From positions 1-23,861 of the IMG/VR virus record IMGVR_UViG_3300000101_000174: a DNA stretch of 23,861 nt; one strand, written 5' to 3'. The DNA comes from a virus. The notes below the pieces were generated by a model. It searched no databases, was not told the DNA's origin, and worked only from the letters and a program-made list of their open reading frames with translations. Positions within the stretch are counted from its first letter, which is position 1. Each line of letters begins with the position of its first letter. This document shows, one piece after another, positions 877 through 15,670 of this stretch. A program made the position numbers and the translations under genes.

Positions 877-2523
877 TTAGCCAGTATACATAATAAATGC
901 TAGTGAGTAAAATGTTGGAACGTGGTATGATGTTGTTATTGTGTGATTATGTCCTTGTCCTGATCCCTGGTTATTAGTTGTTCCGGTTCTCCAGTATACC
1001 CATCTGTTATCTCCGTCACTATCTCCACTACCTTTATAATGTGTTGGCCCTACATAATCTGCTCCACCAATAGTACCACTAGAACCTTGACCTGGGTTAT
1101 TATATTCTATATAGTAGGAATCTTTATATGAATGATTATGTGAAGGTATTTGAGTGGAGGTAAGTGTTGTTGAATTAACAGTTCCGTAGTGATCGTGATT
1201 TGTGTTACCTCCTGTAGACACAGCACTACCTGAGATTGTTGTTGTTGGAGTGCCTGTAGTATTATTGCTGGCTACTACAAATTTATTTCTCAAGTCAGGA
1301 GTTACTACTGAGTTATACGTTGAACCATTACATAGGTTCCAACCAGACGGTAGCGATTGTACTGCTCCAGACCACATGATAATACCTCCTTGCGGTATTG
1401 GAGCTGCATTTACTTGCTTTACTACATCGTTGTTTTGCTGGACTAGGAAATTATAATTGGTAGCAGAAGAAGCGTTGTCTATTGAGTTAACTGTTAGTGA
1501 GCCTGATATTGTAGCACTTTGACTAACATATAATTCTCCACTTCCTGAAATGTCTCCGCTAAATGTAGCTTTGCCATCAATATTGATATCGTCTGATCCT
1601 GTTATTTTTCCGATGACTGTTAGAACATTTCCTGTAACTGTTGCTGAAGTTCCTATTCCTATATTTCCATCTGCTGCAAAATGAGCTACCATTTTATTGT
1701 ATGTCGGTTCTGCAGATGATGATGGAGGTGCAGAAACTATACTAAACGATTCATTCCCTGTAGTAGACTGTATACCCATAAGTATATGAGCGTTGTGAGG
1801 TCCTTCTAATATAATACCACGTTCATTACCTGGTAGTAGGTTAGCACCGACATTATTCTCAATTCTAGTATTACCTGAATCCCATGTGAATAATTTAGAC
1901 CTGTAGTTATTACCGTGATCTTTCCCGAAGATTATACTTCCGCTTATTACAAAATCACCGAGAGTATTAGCTGCTCCTCTATGTAGAACTTTTCCGTCTC
2001 CTGTAACTGTAAGTAGAGGTGTTATTCCGTTATATAGTTCAATATTTGCATTACTATCTGAGAAATTATTTCTAAGTATTAAATCTTTAGTAGTACCTCC
2101 GTATGTAATAGTTGCGTTAGCAGAATCTGTTCCTATTTTGAAATTAGATCCATCTTTTAAATATACATCACCACCCTCTACTCTTAACTTCTCTCCTGTT
2201 GCAGCAGTGGTAGCTCCTAATACTAAAGCATCTACTCCTGTGCTGTTATCGTATACAATTGCGGATGCTCCTCCAAATTGTGTTGGGTTTAATTTAAACT
2301 GTAATTCTCCTACATTACCAGCTACTTCTGGTTGAGAGCCAGTATATGGATTAAGAGGTATATTAATAGTGCTTGCAGATTGAACTGCACTTCCTGTGTA
2401 ATACAAACTTAACTGACTTAAATCAGATGAAAGTGATGCTGAGTAAAATACTGAGCTAAAATTAACATCTAATTCGTTGTATGTTAATGCTGTTCCTTTG
2501 TTTGATCTTAGTGTTATTGCCAT
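877..2523 (-). CDS. tail fibre protein with C-terminal phage tail collar domain
   Basis: This 548-aa fibre has an N-terminal adaptor (residues 1-35) shared with the next gene, a Gly/Ser/Thr-rich beta shaft (about 40-370), and a phage tail-collar domain at about 376-548. The collar part starts with PIPQGGIIMWSG, continues with LPSGWNLCNGS and TPDLRNKF, and contains three His-x-His motifs (HDH at 443-445, HNH at 462-464, HNH at 525-527). In T4 gp12 and gp37 such His pairs bind metal ions in the intertwined trimer, so this is probably a trimeric receptor-binding fibre. It begins two bases after the stop of the 347-aa gene, in the same operon. No reverse transcriptase or template repeat for tip diversification was seen nearby. 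Confidence 0.85.
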   Translation of the reverse strand: MAITLRSNKGTALTYNELDVNFSSVFYSASLSSDLSQLSLYYTGSAVQSASTINIPLNPYTGSQPEVAGNVGELQFKLNPTQFGGASAIVYDNSTGVDALVLGATTAATGEKLRVEGGDVYLKDGSNFKIGTDSANATITYGGTTKDLILRNNFSDSNANIELYNGITPLLTVTGDGKVLHRGAANTLGDFVISGSIIFGKDHGNNYRSKLFTWDSGNTRIENNVGANLLPGNERGIILEGPHNAHILMGIQSTTGNESFSIVSAPPSSSAEPTYNKMVAHFAADGNIGIGTSATVTGNVLTVIGKITGSDDINIDGKATFSGDISGSGELYVSQSATISGSLTVNSIDNASSATNYNFLVQQNNDVVKQVNAAPIPQGGIIMWSGAVQSLPSGWNLCNGSTYNSVVTPDLRNKFVVASNNTTGTPTTTISGSAVSTGGNTNHDHYGTVNSTTLTSTQIPSHNHSYKDSYYIEYNNPGQGSSGTIGGADYVGPTHYKGSGDSDGDNRWVYWRTGTTNNQGSGQGHNHTITTSYHVPTFYSLAFIMYTG

Positions 2524-5294: not shown

Positions 5295-6989
5295 CTATAC
5301 TGTACATACAGTTTTTACTGCATCTATAAATCCTTTATCGTTTGTCGATACTATTGTGGCGCTATCTTTTAACCACACTAATTGTCTTCCTATTGGTTTA
5401 ATTCTACTTCCTTCCGTAGTGTATAGCCTTGATCCTCCAAGTCTTGTTAGTTGGGATCCGGTTGGATGTGCTACAGCTGTTGTACTGTCGTACCCTCTCT
5501 GTAAGGTTAATCTAATATATTTTGAATAAAGAACTAGTGTATTAGAAATTGGATGAATTTGTTTACGGTGGTAGTTAACGTTTAATACGAGTACCTTTTC
5601 AGTTCCTATTAGTAGTATATCTCCTTCTGTTACCAATATTCCAGGTATCGGGTCAAATCTACAGGTAGTATCGGATGCATTTGTAAGTACGTCTGGGTCT
5701 ATTATAGTGCCGACTAATCCGGACCCTACTGTAGGTTCATTTTCTTTACCGTCAAATAGAAGCGTTTCGATATCTCTATCTGCTAATGATGAACTGCAGA
5801 TTTTATTATGATCTGCTGCTAAACCACTGTATGGGTATATTGCTGCTTGGAATGATTTACCTGCTATTGCTGGAGATATACCGCTATAATCTGCTTCGGA
5901 TGTTTTTGTTCCGTTGTACCTGGCGTTTATTAAACCTGTGTCTGTATAGTTTGAGTCTTGAACTGCTGCTTTTTGTGCGTAAGGTACCTGTATACCTCTA
6001 ACTGCTGATATATTCATATATCTTCCCATTTCTCCAAAGAATGTTCCAACTTTAAAAGTATCCATAATTCCAGAAATACTATTTATTACTACTCTCTGTC
6101 TTAGTCTTAAATGTAGATTGTTTTGTGATGTAGTGTATGTTACGTTTACAGGAGTTTGGTTCTTTACTGTTTGGGTTATACCGGAGTTGTTGGTTTGGGT
6201 TAACAGTGTGGTGGTATTAACTGATGATAGGCTTGCTTCTGTGAATATATCTAGGTACAGGTACACTGTATAGCTTACAGCATTACTTAAGTTACTAAGG
6301 AAACTGCTAGGTATTGTGATGACTGGTGGTACGGGTGAGTCAAACGTATTATCAAGATCTGCTAATGTAACTGTAACCTGTGCTCCGCCTTCTCTATTTA
6401 ACTGTCTTATTGGAGAGGTTATCTCACTAACGGTTTGATTAGCTCCGGTTAATGTTGGCATTACTAGTTCTGTTTCTGCTACTTTAGAGGAACCTTCTTG
6501 ATGAAATAATGTTAAATTTACTTGGGGATTTCCAATTAATGCGTCAAAATTATCGGGGTTTACTCCTCCTGATGTTCTGTCTACATCATACCTTAGGCTA
6601 TTAGTTCTAGTATTTTCCGCATTACTTATTAACGCATTATACTGGTTATTAAAGAAAGGTTCAATTAGAAACGGATCTACAGCGATTGAAGAAGATGTAG
6701 AGCTTTGACTATCTCCTATTACTATATCCTGATTATTAAGAAAAAAGTAACCTTGTTTATCGTTTATATCTGTAATACTTAGTGCAGTATTAGCTCCGCT
6801 ACTTGAAATAGGGAGTAACACTTTATTAACTTCTGATAATGAGGGTACTATAACGTTTCCTTCAAGGTCAGTATCTGAGATAGTTATAGATCTTACGGTA
6901 ACAAAGTTACTACCGGCATCTGTTTGCACTAAGACTCGGATTTCTCCTTCTGCTGGTGCTGTGTTTGAAAAGACTCCTTGACTTGGCAT
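5295..6989 (-). CDS. putative baseplate/tail structural protein, unknown family
   Basis: This 564-aa protein has no signal peptide or membrane span. It is rich in beta-prone Ser/Thr/Val/Asn segments. A C-terminal patch reads GDILLIGTEKVLVL, then LQRGYDSTTAVAHPTGS. A 'you must encode this value, RGYDsTxAxxH' pattern like this recurs in phage baseplate or tail-tip proteins, but I cannot assign a T4 gene number. The gene follows the 1541-aa protein and is preceded by a 48-base gap with a TATTTATATA site (7001-7010), so it may head a late sub-operon. A role as a baseplate-peripheral or fibre-anchoring protein is inferred from the order. Confidence 0.6.
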   Translation of the reverse strand: MPSQGVFSNTAPAEGEIRVLVQTDAGSNFVTVRSITISDTDLEGNVIVPSLSEVNKVLLPISSSGANTALSITDINDKQGYFFLNNQDIVIGDSQSSTSSSIAVDPFLIEPFFNNQYNALISNAENTRTNSLRYDVDRTSGGVNPDNFDALIGNPQVNLTLFHQEGSSKVAETELVMPTLTGANQTVSEITSPIRQLNREGGAQVTVTLADLDNTFDSPVPPVITIPSSFLSNLSNAVSYTVYLYLDIFTEASLSSVNTTTLLTQTNNSGITQTVKNQTPVNVTYTTSQNNLHLRLRQRVVINSISGIMDTFKVGTFFGEMGRYMNISAVRGIQVPYAQKAAVQDSNYTDTGLINARYNGTKTSEADYSGISPAIAGKSFQAAIYPYSGLAADHNKICSSSLADRDIETLLFDGKENEPTVGSGLVGTIIDPDVLTNASDTTCRFDPIPGILVTEGDILLIGTEKVLVLNVNYHRKQIHPISNTLVLYSKYIRLTLQRGYDSTTAVAHPTGSQLTRLGGSRLYTTEGSRIKPIGRQLVWLKDSATIVSTNDKGFIDAVKTVCTV

Positions 6990-7037: not shown

Positions 7038-10000
7038 TTACTTATTGTTGTGAGATAGAATTCCATTACTAATATACGTACTAGCTTTTTCTACTGTAAG
7101 TTCTATAACATCTCCCTCTTCTTCTTCTTCTATTTCTAATACTTCGTAACCTGTGGTTATATCTCCTACTTTTAATAGTTTTGCAGCAATAAATTCTGAT
7201 TTACTATCTACATATATTCTGTGATTAGGGCTGCATATTAGATCCCTATCGCTATAGATTACCTTAAGTTTTTTAGATTCTACAAACAATTGAGCTCTAG
7301 TAACAATACAGCTTAACATTTCCATAGTAGTTTCATGTTTAGTTCTCACTATGTCTCCTGTCTTAATATCTTTTGCTTTCTTAGTTACTCCCGTATCTAA
7401 TGTTATGTCTGTTTCTGGATCAACACAATTATTACCTGCACCTTGGGTTAATGATATATAATCTGTTGTTGTCCCATTTACTTTCAAGCTTAGTGTTGCT
7501 GTTCGTGCATAGGCATATGGGTTTGCTGATGCGACAAAGCCAGCACCGCTGCTGTTATTTGTCCCAGAGCTAGGGGAAGGGTATATCCAGCTAGCATTTG
7601 AGGACAGTGTCCAGGTTGTGTTTGAAGTAATAGAGATTGGGTAAGTCATTGCGTTACCTCCCCAGCTAACTGAGGATGGTGTCATTGTTGCTGTACCTGC
7701 TTGATATGTTACGGTGTCGGATACTGTTGATGAGATATTCCCATTCGAGTCTGTTAATGTAATTACGACTGTTACTGTTCCGTTATTAAGGTTGTGGCTA
7801 TTATTAAAAACAGCTACCCATCCAGCAGCATTCCCGGACCCGTTGGAGAAACTGTTTACATTTGCTGTAGTCTTATAGTGTGCATTTCCTCCACCTGTTG
7901 AGGTTATAACTGAAGAAGCAGTTATTGCTTCGGTAGTAGGCAGGCCTGTTATTTTAATGTACCAGTTACCACTTGTGTTGGTTATCTGGGGAGTACTACC
8001 TAGGTAACTTGTAACAAACAATGTAGTGTGACCTGTTACCGGTACTACGTCTTTTTGTATTGTTTTGCCAAAAGACCCATTGTCTGTATTTATTGTTGCT
8101 TCTGTACTTTGATTGCCTGCTTGGTCGGTTAATTTTACGCTTAGCGCTATCGCTGTAGATGTTGTATCAGGTAGAGTTGTAAGGTTTAAATTTGTCTGAA
8201 GGAAGCCGTAGTTACTTATTACAGGTGCTAAAAGGACTTCGTCTGAACCTAAAGATGCTGTAATGTTGGCAATTGCTCCAGGTTCAGCACCGGTTATTAT
8301 TATTGGAACAGAAGTTACGTTATTACTATTAACTTTGCTAGTTCTAAAGGCGGCTGCTGGTGCAGGGGGTGCTCCCGGTATATTATCGTACTGGCTACAG
8401 TTTTGAATATCTGTAACACTTCCATCATTTGCTATTCGGTATGCTATCTGCGCATTTCCACTATGGAAGTATTTATCTGCTCCCACTACTAGATTATTTC
8501 CACCACTGTCGGTATATACTATATCGGCTGAGGCTGGCGCAGTAGTTACTCCGTCATGGTATTGGGTTGTGCTATTACTTGCTGGTAGAGCACAGGCTAG
8601 TTGAGGAGTTGTTTGTCCGGAAGTGTTGAGAGAGAATGGGGTATAGACCCCGCTATCAGATTCCACTGTTGTTACATTATACCTTAGAAGTGGTGAGTCT
8701 AGTATTTTAAAGTTGTTTAGTCTATTTAATTCACCATCGCTAATTTTTATAACACTACCACTTAATTCTCCGTTAAACTTTGGGGACTCATCCCCTACCA
8801 TTCTTTTAGTTGTACCGCTAACTGTCTGTACTTTTTCTTGATATAGTGTTGTATTAAGCTCGGGTTTAAATTCTGCAAATGATTTCATAAAGCTATGGAA
8901 TTCATCTATCTTTCCTGCATTTGGTGTCATACCTATAGATGCAATTATTAAATCACTAGCTAATGGTGTGAATGTTGCCTTTGTAGAGTTATTATCTACA
9001 GCATTCCAGCTATTATTATCGTACAGTACAACTACTATATTAGGGTGATGAGTACTATCTGTTAGGGTTGTTAGAGTAGGGAATCTTGCTACTACACCTT
9101 GATCGCTATGCATTAAGAAAGATTTACGGTGTGAACTGGTGTTACCCTCTAATCCGGTAAAGATGTTGTAACCCCTATCTAAGTACTTATACTCTGTTCC
9201 ATTAGGATGTATTAACTCGGTACCTGTAACGATTATTTCACCTATATTATCTGTGTTTGGGGTCTGTTTATTTAACTTAAATGATAAGTTACTTGCTCCT
9301 CCGATAGCACCTGGTGTCCATTTACTAACTAACTCTTTTTGGTATTTTTCAGTTCTATTAAATAATGCAGTACTATATGCTCCGGCATCGGAGCCTTCAA
9401 TAAATGCTGTATCTATCTCTCCTTCATGATCAAGTTGTGTTCCTGATAGTTCTGGTGTCTTTGTTTTAGACTTACTTAGTAGCCCTGGTTTGATTATAAT
9501 ACCTGTATCAGCAGTAGTCCTAGCCGGTAAGAAATCCTTTATCATTTTGAATAGAGTATTGTCGTAAAATTTCAATATTCTTACAAAATCATTTAGTTGG
9601 TATCTCTCCAGTGAACCTATTGTCCTGCGCTCTTGTTCTACTAATCCGCTGTACTCTAGGTTGTTTTCGTTTCTAGGATCCCCTAAATAAGAATCAATAC
9701 TGAAGTCTGATGCTACTTGTGATAATATGTATTCGTCTATAGAATCTGTTGGAGAGAATCCTACCTCTATCCTGTGAATATCCTGTGTCAATACGTTTTC
9801 TGATTTCTGTATTGAGGTATATTCGTTTAATGTTGTGTTTACAGATCCGCTTGCTCTTGTCTCAATCCTTAGTTTATCTGCTGCTGCTTCACTATGTTTA
9901 TCGTAGTTAAAGAATTTATCCTCAGTTATATTCTTCCCTCCATATTGTTTAATAGTTAAGAAATCAGAAGGTATACCGAAACAGTTGATTAATGCTCTTA

Positions 10001-13861: not shown

Positions 13862-15670
13862 TTATAAAGTTGTTATTCTACCTTTTATATCTGTGTCTGG
13901 ATATTTTATTTCAAATATCATTGGATCTAAAGACGGGTAAAGTATGTTATTTTTCATTGCTCCCATAACGTCGTAGTCGTAGATAGAATACCCTTCTCCT
14001 GATAAGCTTTCTAAGTGTATGTTTTGTACTGTTTGAACTCCTTTTACTCTATCAAGTAAAGTGTAAATTGCAGATATATTGATTGGCTGATTTATTGACC
14101 AGTTATCTATATCAAAATGATCTTTTAGAACATCTGTACATGCTTTAAGAACTTCTCTTGAATTCATATTAGGTAGTGCTATAATGTCAAACTTAACTCC
14201 TAAATTGATAGTGAATGCATCTTTAAGTGTAAGTCCATCTGTAAGCATCATGTACGGAGCTAGATAGTTTTTTAAGTTAGTCTTTAATTCCGGTGATGCT
14301 TTTACTGTGTTTTTTAGATTGTCATAAGCAAGTATATAAAGTGTTACACCTAATGGGTTGTTCGGATGGCTATGGGCATCTGCTGCAATAATTGATTCCT
14401 GTTGGGTAACGTACGTCTTAGCAATAGAACCATATGGAGAGGGCATTGTCATAGCTCTAAATGCGAAATCTTGAGCTGTCACCATTCTCCCTTGTTCGTT
14501 AAACGCTTTCAAGGAGTTCTGTCTTAACTCTTCTATTGTATCTCCGTCTTTTCCTCCAGATGCTGGTTTTGGATTGGTGACTAAAAGTGTTCCAGCGTAT
14601 GTTAAATCATCTGCTGTCTTATTTACGCTTTCAATTGTATTCAAAGCATTAGCTTCTACGTTAGCTTCTATTCCACCTCCTCTTAGGTATCTAATAGTTA
14701 GGGTGGTGTTAGCTGGGGCATTGCCGTATGCTCCTGAATATAGAAAATTAGAAGGGTCATACGCTTCTAAACTCTTATTTGTACCCCCTACTGGGACTGG
14801 TGAGCCTACATTTGTTGGGTTAGGCAAGAAAGATGAGTCGGTAGATGTTGCTGTTCCTGCTCCGAACTGTATTAACAGTTGACCTATAGAGTTAAACCTT
14901 GTTACGAACCTATTATCTACTTTAGATGTAGAGACTAAGTATGGAACTTTATCTGGGTTATCTCCTCCGTTTACTGTATCGTTGTATATTGTCTCTTGTC
15001 CTAGGAATGGTACTTCAGACCAAACGTTATTATTTCCGTCTACTATGTCAAGTATACCTATAATGTTAGTGTCCTCTATCGTCAATGTTAGAAACTTTGA
15101 TGCTGTTCCTATTGTCTCTGTTTGAGTAACTATTTCTCCACTTTTAGCTCTTACTTTCTTAATGAGTTCGTACTCAGCTGGAAGATTATTATCAATTGAG
15201 TAAACTAGAGTTTCTGTTGGGTCGTATGAGCTTGAGAAAGAGAAGTCTACTTGTTCTTCAATTAGGAATTTCTGAACGCCATCGGAGATTACGCTATTAG
15301 CTCCTATAGTTAGTGCTTGTTTAAAGTTAGGAACATATTCTGACCCTGAAGCTGCTACTCTTTGTCTAAGTTCTATTTCGACAGAGGATGCTGAAGTTGT
15401 TCTTGGTCTGTATCCCATCTGGTAGGCTAATGTATATAGGTTACTAGGATCTTGGGCATACTGTAGATATGTTTCCTGTAATTGTGAATCCTGGTAATAT
15501 GATAGTATATCCCCTACATATGCTGCCATTTCAACAAACATCATTCCTGGTGATGTTGGAGAGAAATCGTTGTATGTATCCGGAAAGTAATTCTTAGCTA
15601 AGTCTACTAGTTGTGACTTTAAACTATTAAAGTCTTTGTCGGTGTATTTTATGTTAACGTCTTGAGCCAT
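13862..15670 (-). CDS. baseplate wedge protein, T4 gp6-like (baseplate J family)
   Basis: In T4, gp6 forms the dimeric backbone of the baseplate wedge and links the inner and outer parts. This 602-aa protein has the family's N-terminal region: SPTSPGMMFVEMAAYVGDIL at 37-56, followed by YYQDSQLQETYL and GYRPR. The central J-type motif is at about 368-410 (KPASGGKDGDTIEELRQ, then RMVTAQDF). The C-terminal part (about 460-560) contains KAC-x-DVLKDHFDID and ISAIYTLLDRVKGV, typical of the wedge interface. The start ATG overlaps the stop of the gp25-like gene (TAATG), so the two are translationally coupled. The length is close to that of T4 gp6. Confidence 0.9.
   Translation of the reverse strand: MAQDVNIKYTDKDFNSLKSQLVDLAKNYFPDTYNDFSPTSPGMMFVEMAAYVGDILSYYQDSQLQETYLQYAQDPSNLYTLAYQMGYRPRTTSASSVEIELRQRVAASGSEYVPNFKQALTIGANSVISDGVQKFLIEEQVDFSFSSSYDPTETLVYSIDNNLPAEYELIKKVRAKSGEIVTQTETIGTASKFLTLTIEDTNIIGILDIVDGNNNVWSEVPFLGQETIYNDTVNGGDNPDKVPYLVSTSKVDNRFVTRFNSIGQLLIQFGAGTATSTDSSFLPNPTNVGSPVPVGGTNKSLEAYDPSNFLYSGAYGNAPANTTLTIRYLRGGGIEANVEANALNTIESVNKTADDLTYAGTLLVTNPKPASGGKDGDTIEELRQNSLKAFNEQGRMVTAQDFAFRAMTMPSPYGSIAKTYVTQQESIIAADAHSHPNNPLGVTLYILAYDNLKNTVKASPELKTNLKNYLAPYMMLTDGLTLKDAFTINLGVKFDIIALPNMNSREVLKACTDVLKDHFDIDNWSINQPINISAIYTLLDRVKGVQTVQNIHLESLSGEGYSIYDYDVMGAMKNNILYPSLDPMIFEIKYPDTDIKGRITTL

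Follow-up and report, generated by a model that had tools for sequence, protein, structure and literature searches.

The stretch of DNA analysed here (the window) is a virus record of 23,861 bases, IMG/VR record IMGVR_UViG_3300000101_000174, whose tail-module genes lie on the minus strand. One of these genes encodes a protein of 1541 amino acids (aa) that carries a complete mini-Hint domain at its extreme C-terminus (Table 1). Cys1413 (Cys1), the block-B His1481 and the closing His1538-Asn1539 are all present, as stated in the original prediction, and the translation confirms that only Asn-Lys follows the SHN motif and that the +1 residue, Asn, is not a nucleophile; that residue inventory had the catalytic set right and overlooked the Lys at +2. 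The domain is read here as a member of a phage-tail Hint subfamily, similar to the bacterial intein-like (BIL) domains, that would process itself, with a conserved Lys as the likely acceptor and a short X-Lys tail re-joined to the protein. To this reading, made from comparison of sequences, we give an even chance.

Table 1. Features of the window that bear on the C-terminal Hint domain
Feature	Positions	Strand	Basis
Baseplate-module protein carrying the Hint, 1541 aa	7038..11663	-	Open reading frame (ORF) and translation, ends ...TYISNGILSHN-NK-stop
N-terminal region, about residues 1-780, common to Hint-less phage homologues	9324..11663	-	Homologue comparison
BACON-like domain, residues 1349-1407, immediately before the Hint	7443..7619	-	Pfam BACON, E 2e-5, 24.9 bits against a cut-off of 25
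Complete mini-Hint with two-residue end, residues 1413-1541	7041..7427	-	Translation
Hint proper, Cys1413 to Asn1539, 127 aa	7047..7427	-	Pfam and NCBIfam profiles, alignment, model
Cys1, residue 1413, expected nucleophile of the N-S acyl shift	7425..7427	-	Invariant in alignments A4 and A5; also a trimming anchor
Block-B His, residue 1481 (CSPNH)	7221..7223	-	Invariant in A4 and A5, 68/68 in the collection; not an anchor
Penultimate His1538 and terminal Asn1539, predicted C-terminal cleavage residues	7047..7052	-	Invariant in A4 and A5; also a trimming anchor
C-extein Asn1540-Lys1541, Lys at +2	7041..7046	-	Translation
gp6-like baseplate wedge gene	13862..15670	-	PHROG baseplate wedge subunit, E 8.1e-19

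The 1541-aa protein is encoded by the third gene after the gp6-like baseplate wedge gene, an order shared with Flavobacterium phage immuto (homologue with 43.6% identity across 64% of the query); by this gene order the protein belongs to the baseplate module. Its N-terminal 688 residues are poorly modelled (predicted local distance difference test, pLDDT, 43). The region before the Hint is likely a divergent BACON domain, its match falling narrowly short of the curated cut-off of PF13004. A glycan-binding neighbour had been predicted for the Hint; glycan binding by the BACON-like region is putative. A double stop, TAA TAG, directly follows the Lys1541 codon, so that readthrough to a longer C-extein is unlikely, and a split intein was ruled out, both halves lying within one ORF. 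Elsewhere in the window (877-2523) a tail collar fibre-like protein matches a PHROG tail protein (E 2e-20) and, near threshold, Phage Tail Collar.

Searched alone, the Hint domain matches Pfam Intein_splicing (PF14890) at E 6.3e-7 and 29.8 bits, below the cut-off of 35.8, and PT-HINT (PF07591) at 19.0 bits, below the cut-off of 27.7; Hint_2 and Vint also match below their Pfam cut-offs, and NCBIfam TIGR01443 (intein C-terminal region) exceeds its own. An AlphaFold2 model built with 36 aligned relatives (pLDDT 94.3, predicted TM score 0.86) has the horseshoe all-beta fold which, together with the invariant Cys1 and block-B His, places the domain in the Hint superfamily. The 50 PDB fold matches listed are inteins, BIL and Hedgehog domains. 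First among them is BIL2 of Tetrahymena thermophila (BUBL1 polyubiquitin locus; PDB 6y75, 6tmm), which we take to lack a +1 nucleophile, with a Z of 21.2 to 6y75 and a root-mean-square deviation of 1.5 over 133 residues; others include the Ssp DnaB intein (1mi8, 20.4), the C. thermocellum BIL (2lwy, presumably of type A, 19.6) and the Hedgehog autoprocessing domain (1at0, 19.2), differences of less than 1 Z being read as ties. The family profile also has BIL2 as its nearest PDB sequence (E 4.7e-13), ahead of the Spl DnaX mini-intein (2.2e-10), 8w20 (5.2e-10) and the C. thermocellum BIL (6.9e-10). The entries 8w20 and 8w22 are a 1368-aa protein named 'Intein C-terminal splicing domain-containing protein'.

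Class 1 inteins have Cys, Ser or Thr at +1, a position held by Asn in the window. Type B BILs have no similarity to intein block G; here the block G His-Asn is present and TIGR01443 is above its cut-off. The domain has the C-terminal His-Asn without a +1 nucleophile that defines type A BILs (PMC4031507). The window Hint is under purifying selection, with a ratio of nonsynonymous to synonymous substitution rates (dN/dS) of 0.11-0.15 in three window pairs and 0.13-0.35 in three other pairs, although most dS values in the six pairs are about 1 or more and thus near saturation.

Relatives were collected by scanning viral contigs with the window domain, its profiles or the more distant locus L042 as query, and by scanning bacterial, archaeal and phage records. 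The 68 distinct Hint-plus-tail sequences obtained come mostly from viral contigs and prophage-like loci, 'prophage' being inferred from nearby tail genes or from the listing of the same contig in IMG/VR. The scan of 84,980 bacterial and archaeal genomes gave 16 stretches with the pattern and four relatives (two Corallococcus and two Sphingomonas records). Whole-genome searches detected it in 3 of 298 Sphingomonas-family genomes (E 1e-15) and in 15 of 96 Corallococcus-family genomes (E 1e-10), or 14 without genome G378 (L117), whose match looks only like PT-HINT. A single member (L092, with L036 as query) was found in 50,697 deposited phage records, so that the family is rare among deposited phages. 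An ordinary phage intein was considered and rejected: queries with the window, L031 and L042 gave only weak matches in these records, mostly, where annotated, to terminase, helicase-type or reductase genes. The family is mainly viral and phage-borne. The collection scans rely on short conserved patterns such as TYISNGILS and therefore miss divergent members, and the myxobacterial members ending in LAHN came only from the Corallococcus-family whole-genome scan.

Conservation of the catalytic Cys, His and Asn in homologues with the Hint at the same place had been proposed as a test, and all three are kept in the five nearest relatives and throughout the 36-37 aligned members, at identities to the window down to 28%. 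Cys1, the block-B His, Tyr122, Ser129, His130 and Asn131 are invariant in the 37-member alignment; later-found myxobacterial members have Ala or Thr before His-Asn. Pfam Intein_splicing matches 30 of 36 members at E 0.01 or better, and PT-HINT 18 of the 36. Twelve of 14 whole records searched have one Hint match, one has two and one has four, two of them weak. In a midpoint-rooted tree of tail clusters and sampled PT-HINT members, 34 of 35 tail clusters fall on one side of a branch (100/99) and the PT-HINT members lie apart; the 35th cluster, L042, groups away with L192, whose slice is badly cut, lacking its first residues and including part of the tail.

The residues after the Hint were counted twice. 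The earlier count has 28 terminal members, terminal meaning a tail of at most 15 residues. It omits the classical or distant Hints L043, L044, L089, L090, L091 and L093, as well as L042, the duplicate L001, the truncated L009 and L035, and L040 and L083, in which the Hint starts further upstream; 37 of 77 entries were left after dropping L040 and L083 and merging near-copies. The later count, with a limit of 20 residues, covers the 68 sequences. It omits the same six Hints, L117, L001, matches above E 1e-8 and the truncated L009 and L035, and retains L042, L040 and L083. No entry was removed for want of Cys1 or His-Asn, yet the 68/68 for both is partly method-made, because both served as trimming anchors.

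By the later count the Hint is C-terminal in 57 of the 68 sequences, among them a short, probably frame-broken one (L116) in which the chosen Cys is doubtful. Lys stands at +2 in 55 of the 57 and at +1 in the other two; Cys, Ser or Thr is at +1 in four. Clustering at 50% identity leaves 16 terminal clusters, 15 with Lys at +2 and one with Lys at +1, with seven residue types at +1 and eight, or no residue, at +3. At 90% identity the +1 residue is Ile or Val in 17 of 45 terminal clusters, and among the internal entries Lys is at +1 in six of seven, the seventh having Leu-Lys. A quarter of the earlier terminal members (7/28) end two residues after the Hint, as the window protein does. The last 15 residues of the linker hold at least five Gly in 39 of the 57, the window not among them. 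The Lys codons of 24 members divide evenly into 12 AAA and 12 AAG over a range of third-position GC from 0.10 to 0.96, which indicates that the constraint on Lys acts on the protein. None of the 15 PT-HINT controls, which come from the same bacterial family, carries Lys at +1 or +2 (15 of 17 loci with a His-Asn end, L136 and L138 being identical there), and in the five loci of the Hint_2 control His-Asn was absent from the longest frames. The conserved Lys is suggestive of isopeptide formation like that of BIL2, and its occurrence at either +1 or +2 would be easier to reconcile with a flexible acceptor than with a catalytic residue in a fixed place.

The host proteins form about ten groups unlinked by phmmer, many of them recognisably tail proteins. 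They include the type of the 1541-aa protein, a tail assembly protein resembling gpI (L087; phrog_32, E 8.5e-55), the central tail fibre J (L081; phrog_31) and members of phrog_1101 (L039), phrog_376 (L037, L086) and phrog_5616 (L082); no informative PHROG match was obtained for the hosts of L029, L030, L033, L036, L049, L060 and L062. Several Corallococcus-group loci (L036, L038, L079, L087 and others) carry a Hint on each of two adjacent proteins within a single tail module, the gpI-like protein and a neighbour linked by phmmer with L039. In T4-like cyanophages the host is a VrlC/DUF4815-type structural protein with the Hint internal in Pro-rich stretches. That protein is present as two ORFs in L067-L074, with the Hint in a Pro-rich stretch near the split, and as one feature in known phages; two Hints stand in tandem in one such protein at L072:4186-5088. 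At L042:5700-8894 and in L192 a more distant Hint lies in the Gly/Lys-rich N-terminal arm of a large protein (QGGKGG/C...VHN/KGG), with Lys at +1. A separate domain of about 115-130 aa with the motif KIICNELYxQG is C-terminal in several different phage proteins, with lengths that include about 405, 570 and 1461 aa, at L150-L190, on 41 viral contigs, one of which is the contig of L049; the L049 copy (5385-5777), which has no PHROG match, comes after a Hint.

Homologues with and without the Hint were compared. Close homologues of the 1541-aa protein have it and some more distant ones do not, which shows that it is not essential to this protein family. The Hint-less ones, immuto and seven further contigs with closed ends, have five distinct C-termini with other domains, and the with/without comparison was therefore drawn from another host. 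This is the short phrog_376/E1_FCCH-type tail protein, of which both forms occur in Sphingomonadales genomes and two viral contigs; the longer homologues L233 and L234, with unrelated C-termini, were excluded. Eight distinct Hint-less versions have a Pro-rich and then a Gly-rich linker and a short tail (e.g. ...PNYGGGGGGGFGGVDIR-stop), and five distinct Hint-bearing versions have a similar linker, the Hint and 6-10 further residues (e.g. ...PDTGGGGGGFGGVH-Hint-LKENPE-stop). The Hint is therefore dispensable for the short tail protein in some phages. Excision with re-joining would restore an end like that of the Hint-less form, and the pattern, which resembles an intein insertion, favours excision with re-joining over simple shedding. 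No clean case of a J-type homologue without Hint was found among the Corallococcus relatives, and the search for Hint-less gpI-type forms gave seven places, six with Hint and the seventh a fragment.

Some self-processing of the Hint is highly probable, and re-joining, as opposed to cleavage only, is evenly poised. In the proposed course Cys1, aided by the block-B His, would form a thioester at GNN/C, which is the chemistry that had been predicted. Since the +1 residue is not a nucleophile, resolution of the thioester would fall to an amine; the likeliest acceptor would be the near-invariant Lys at +2 (or +1), giving an isopeptide-branched intermediate, or else the new alpha-amine of the tail would attack, as proposed for type A BILs. 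Cyclisation at His-Asn would then free the Hint, leaving the tail protein with its short X-Lys tail re-joined. The Lys side chain as acceptor takes the larger share of the chance of re-joining and is, by itself, somewhat less likely than not. The joint conservation of Cys1 and His-Asn implies selection for a reaction at each end of the Hint; with shedding by hydrolysis only, no constraint would be expected on His-Asn and Lys, least of all in members whose tail has two residues.

Such hydrolysis is nonetheless the basis of another explanation, unlikely on the present comparison, in which the Cys1 thioester would be hydrolysed in the style of Hedgehog or type B BILs and the Hint would be a folding or assembly aid that drops off, comparable to the C-terminal S74 autopeptidase domains present on some phage proteins (PMC7824862). 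The extreme C-terminal position, often behind a flexible linker, and the mainly cleaved products of BILs (PMC4031507, PMC7664689) speak for it, whereas the kept Lys and His-Asn are unexplained if the Hint leaves anyway, and the Hint-less homologues mean that a folding aid is not always needed. Re-joining could also take place without the Lys side chain. Asn would cyclise before the new +1 alpha-amine attacks the thioester, and Lys +2 would only position the tail, a course put forward for type A BILs, which have His-Asn and lack a nucleophile at +1 (PMC4031507). This sub-case needs only Cys1 and His-Asn, both kept, but leaves the near-invariant Lys unexplained and has to contend with a frequently bulky +1 residue (the Ile or Val noted above); we consider it quite unlikely. 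The published course nevertheless makes the statement in the original prediction that normal splicing cannot join the exteins too strong, as type A BILs without a +1 nucleophile can splice, cleavage dominating (PMC4031507), and for Tetrahymena BIL2 a linkage of its flank to Lys has been reported (PMC8616854).

The thioester might instead wait for an amine from outside, so that the tail protein would become coupled to a different protein of the virion or to the surface of the host. Such attachment had been put forward earlier and is possible in principle; consistent with it are the missing +1 nucleophile in 53 of the 57 terminal members, the hosts from the baseplate module, the central tail fibre J and other tail families, the Hints on two adjoining tail-module proteins in several Corallococcus-group loci, and the reported conjugation of the BIL2 flank to other proteins (PMC8616854). 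The attachment itself found no support: an outside amine would face competition from the Lys next to the active site, His-Asn would be unneeded, and no partner gene was identified, no systematic search having been made for one. Local excision and re-joining agree better with the with/without comparison and with the retention of His-Asn, and donation in trans appears improbable. Most improbable is an inactive intein relic that merely caps the protein; a 127-aa Hint with neither a nuclease domain nor a +1 nucleophile could be taken for one, but the catalytic residues are kept, selection is purifying and the domain is spread over about ten host-protein groups.

Several points weigh against excision with a Lys acceptor. 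The conserved Lys could be catalytic or structural instead, and in L042 and L192 the Lys at +1 lies within the Gly/Lys-rich arm and may be inherited context. The forms of the short tail protein with and without Hint are 41-59% identical over the compared domain, so that insertion is inferred from similar ends and not from near-identical pairs; one scan found no Hint-less homologue with the BACON end of the window protein, whose own linker before the Hint is not Gly-rich. The last block of the window Hint model has low confidence (67), the lead of BIL2 over ordinary inteins in fold is a tie at less than 1 Z, and the window sequence alone matches an engineered consensus intein in the PDB (E 0.0019) ahead of BIL2 (0.019). 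The use to the phage of what would be a two-residue gain is also not obvious.

Set beside known systems, the family belongs to the known Hint/BIL kind, as a variant from phage tails set apart by its Lys, and phage 'Hint domain' names already stand in public databases. BIL2 resembles it in fold and in having Lys as the reported acceptor, as it reportedly makes an isopeptide bond to Lys and attaches a ubiquitin-like domain to other proteins (PMC8616854); it differs in lying between ubiquitin-like domains in a ciliate, in an identity of 21%, and in an acceptor Lys that, instead of standing at +2, belongs to the following domain or to a different protein. Type A BILs share the His-Asn end and the lack of a +1 nucleophile, and those published cleave or splice via amine attack (PMC4031507, PMC7664689); the phage family differs by its tail hosts, its mostly extreme C-terminal position and Lys at +2. 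Class 1 mini-inteins (Ssp and Npu DnaB, gp41-1) are alike in fold (Z 18-20) and in presence or absence among homologues, whereas the phage domains mostly lack a +1 nucleophile and often sit in linker-like protein ends. PT-HINT of polymorphic toxins is likewise a Hint autoprocessing domain with a His-Asn end in the C-terminal part of a large protein, but it precedes a C-terminal toxin region (PMC3482391), has no Lys at +1 or +2 in the controls and is separate in the tree. The likeness to the Hedgehog domain lies in the fold and the thioester at Cys1. That domain is not known to carry out the C-terminal His-Asn reaction. Phage proteins named Hint in BFVD are among the best fold matches (best A0A218MKA3, 29% identity), likened by name and fold only, and a weak match (E 4.7e-4) falls close to the C-terminal end of phrog_21587, a PHROG family of unknown function.

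Among the matches listed from the open-licence literature, no title or abstract dealt with C-terminal Hint domains of phage tail proteins; within that literature, even cleavage only would be a phage-tail maturation step without a description. A benefit to the phage may come from when the Hint is released, from blocking of the C-terminus or from subunits becoming linked. In a wider form, which we regard as doubtful, a dedicated phage Hint subfamily would splice via a Lys side chain in place of the +1 Cys, Ser or Thr and leave a mature tail tip with an isopeptide bond, and the same chemistry, with Lys coming from an adjoining subunit or from another tail protein, would weld tail subunits without ATP or further enzymes; the Corallococcus prophages with Hints on two adjoining tail-module proteins might be such a case. 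The family is open to testing because it has members in sequenced Corallococcus and Sphingomonas strains. If Lys is the acceptor, phage tails would hold a compact counterpart of the BIL2 chemistry with the acceptor built in, for which two trailing residues suffice; this would yield a small tool for isopeptide ligation that is genetically encoded, and would explain the recurrence of C-terminal Hints on different tail proteins.
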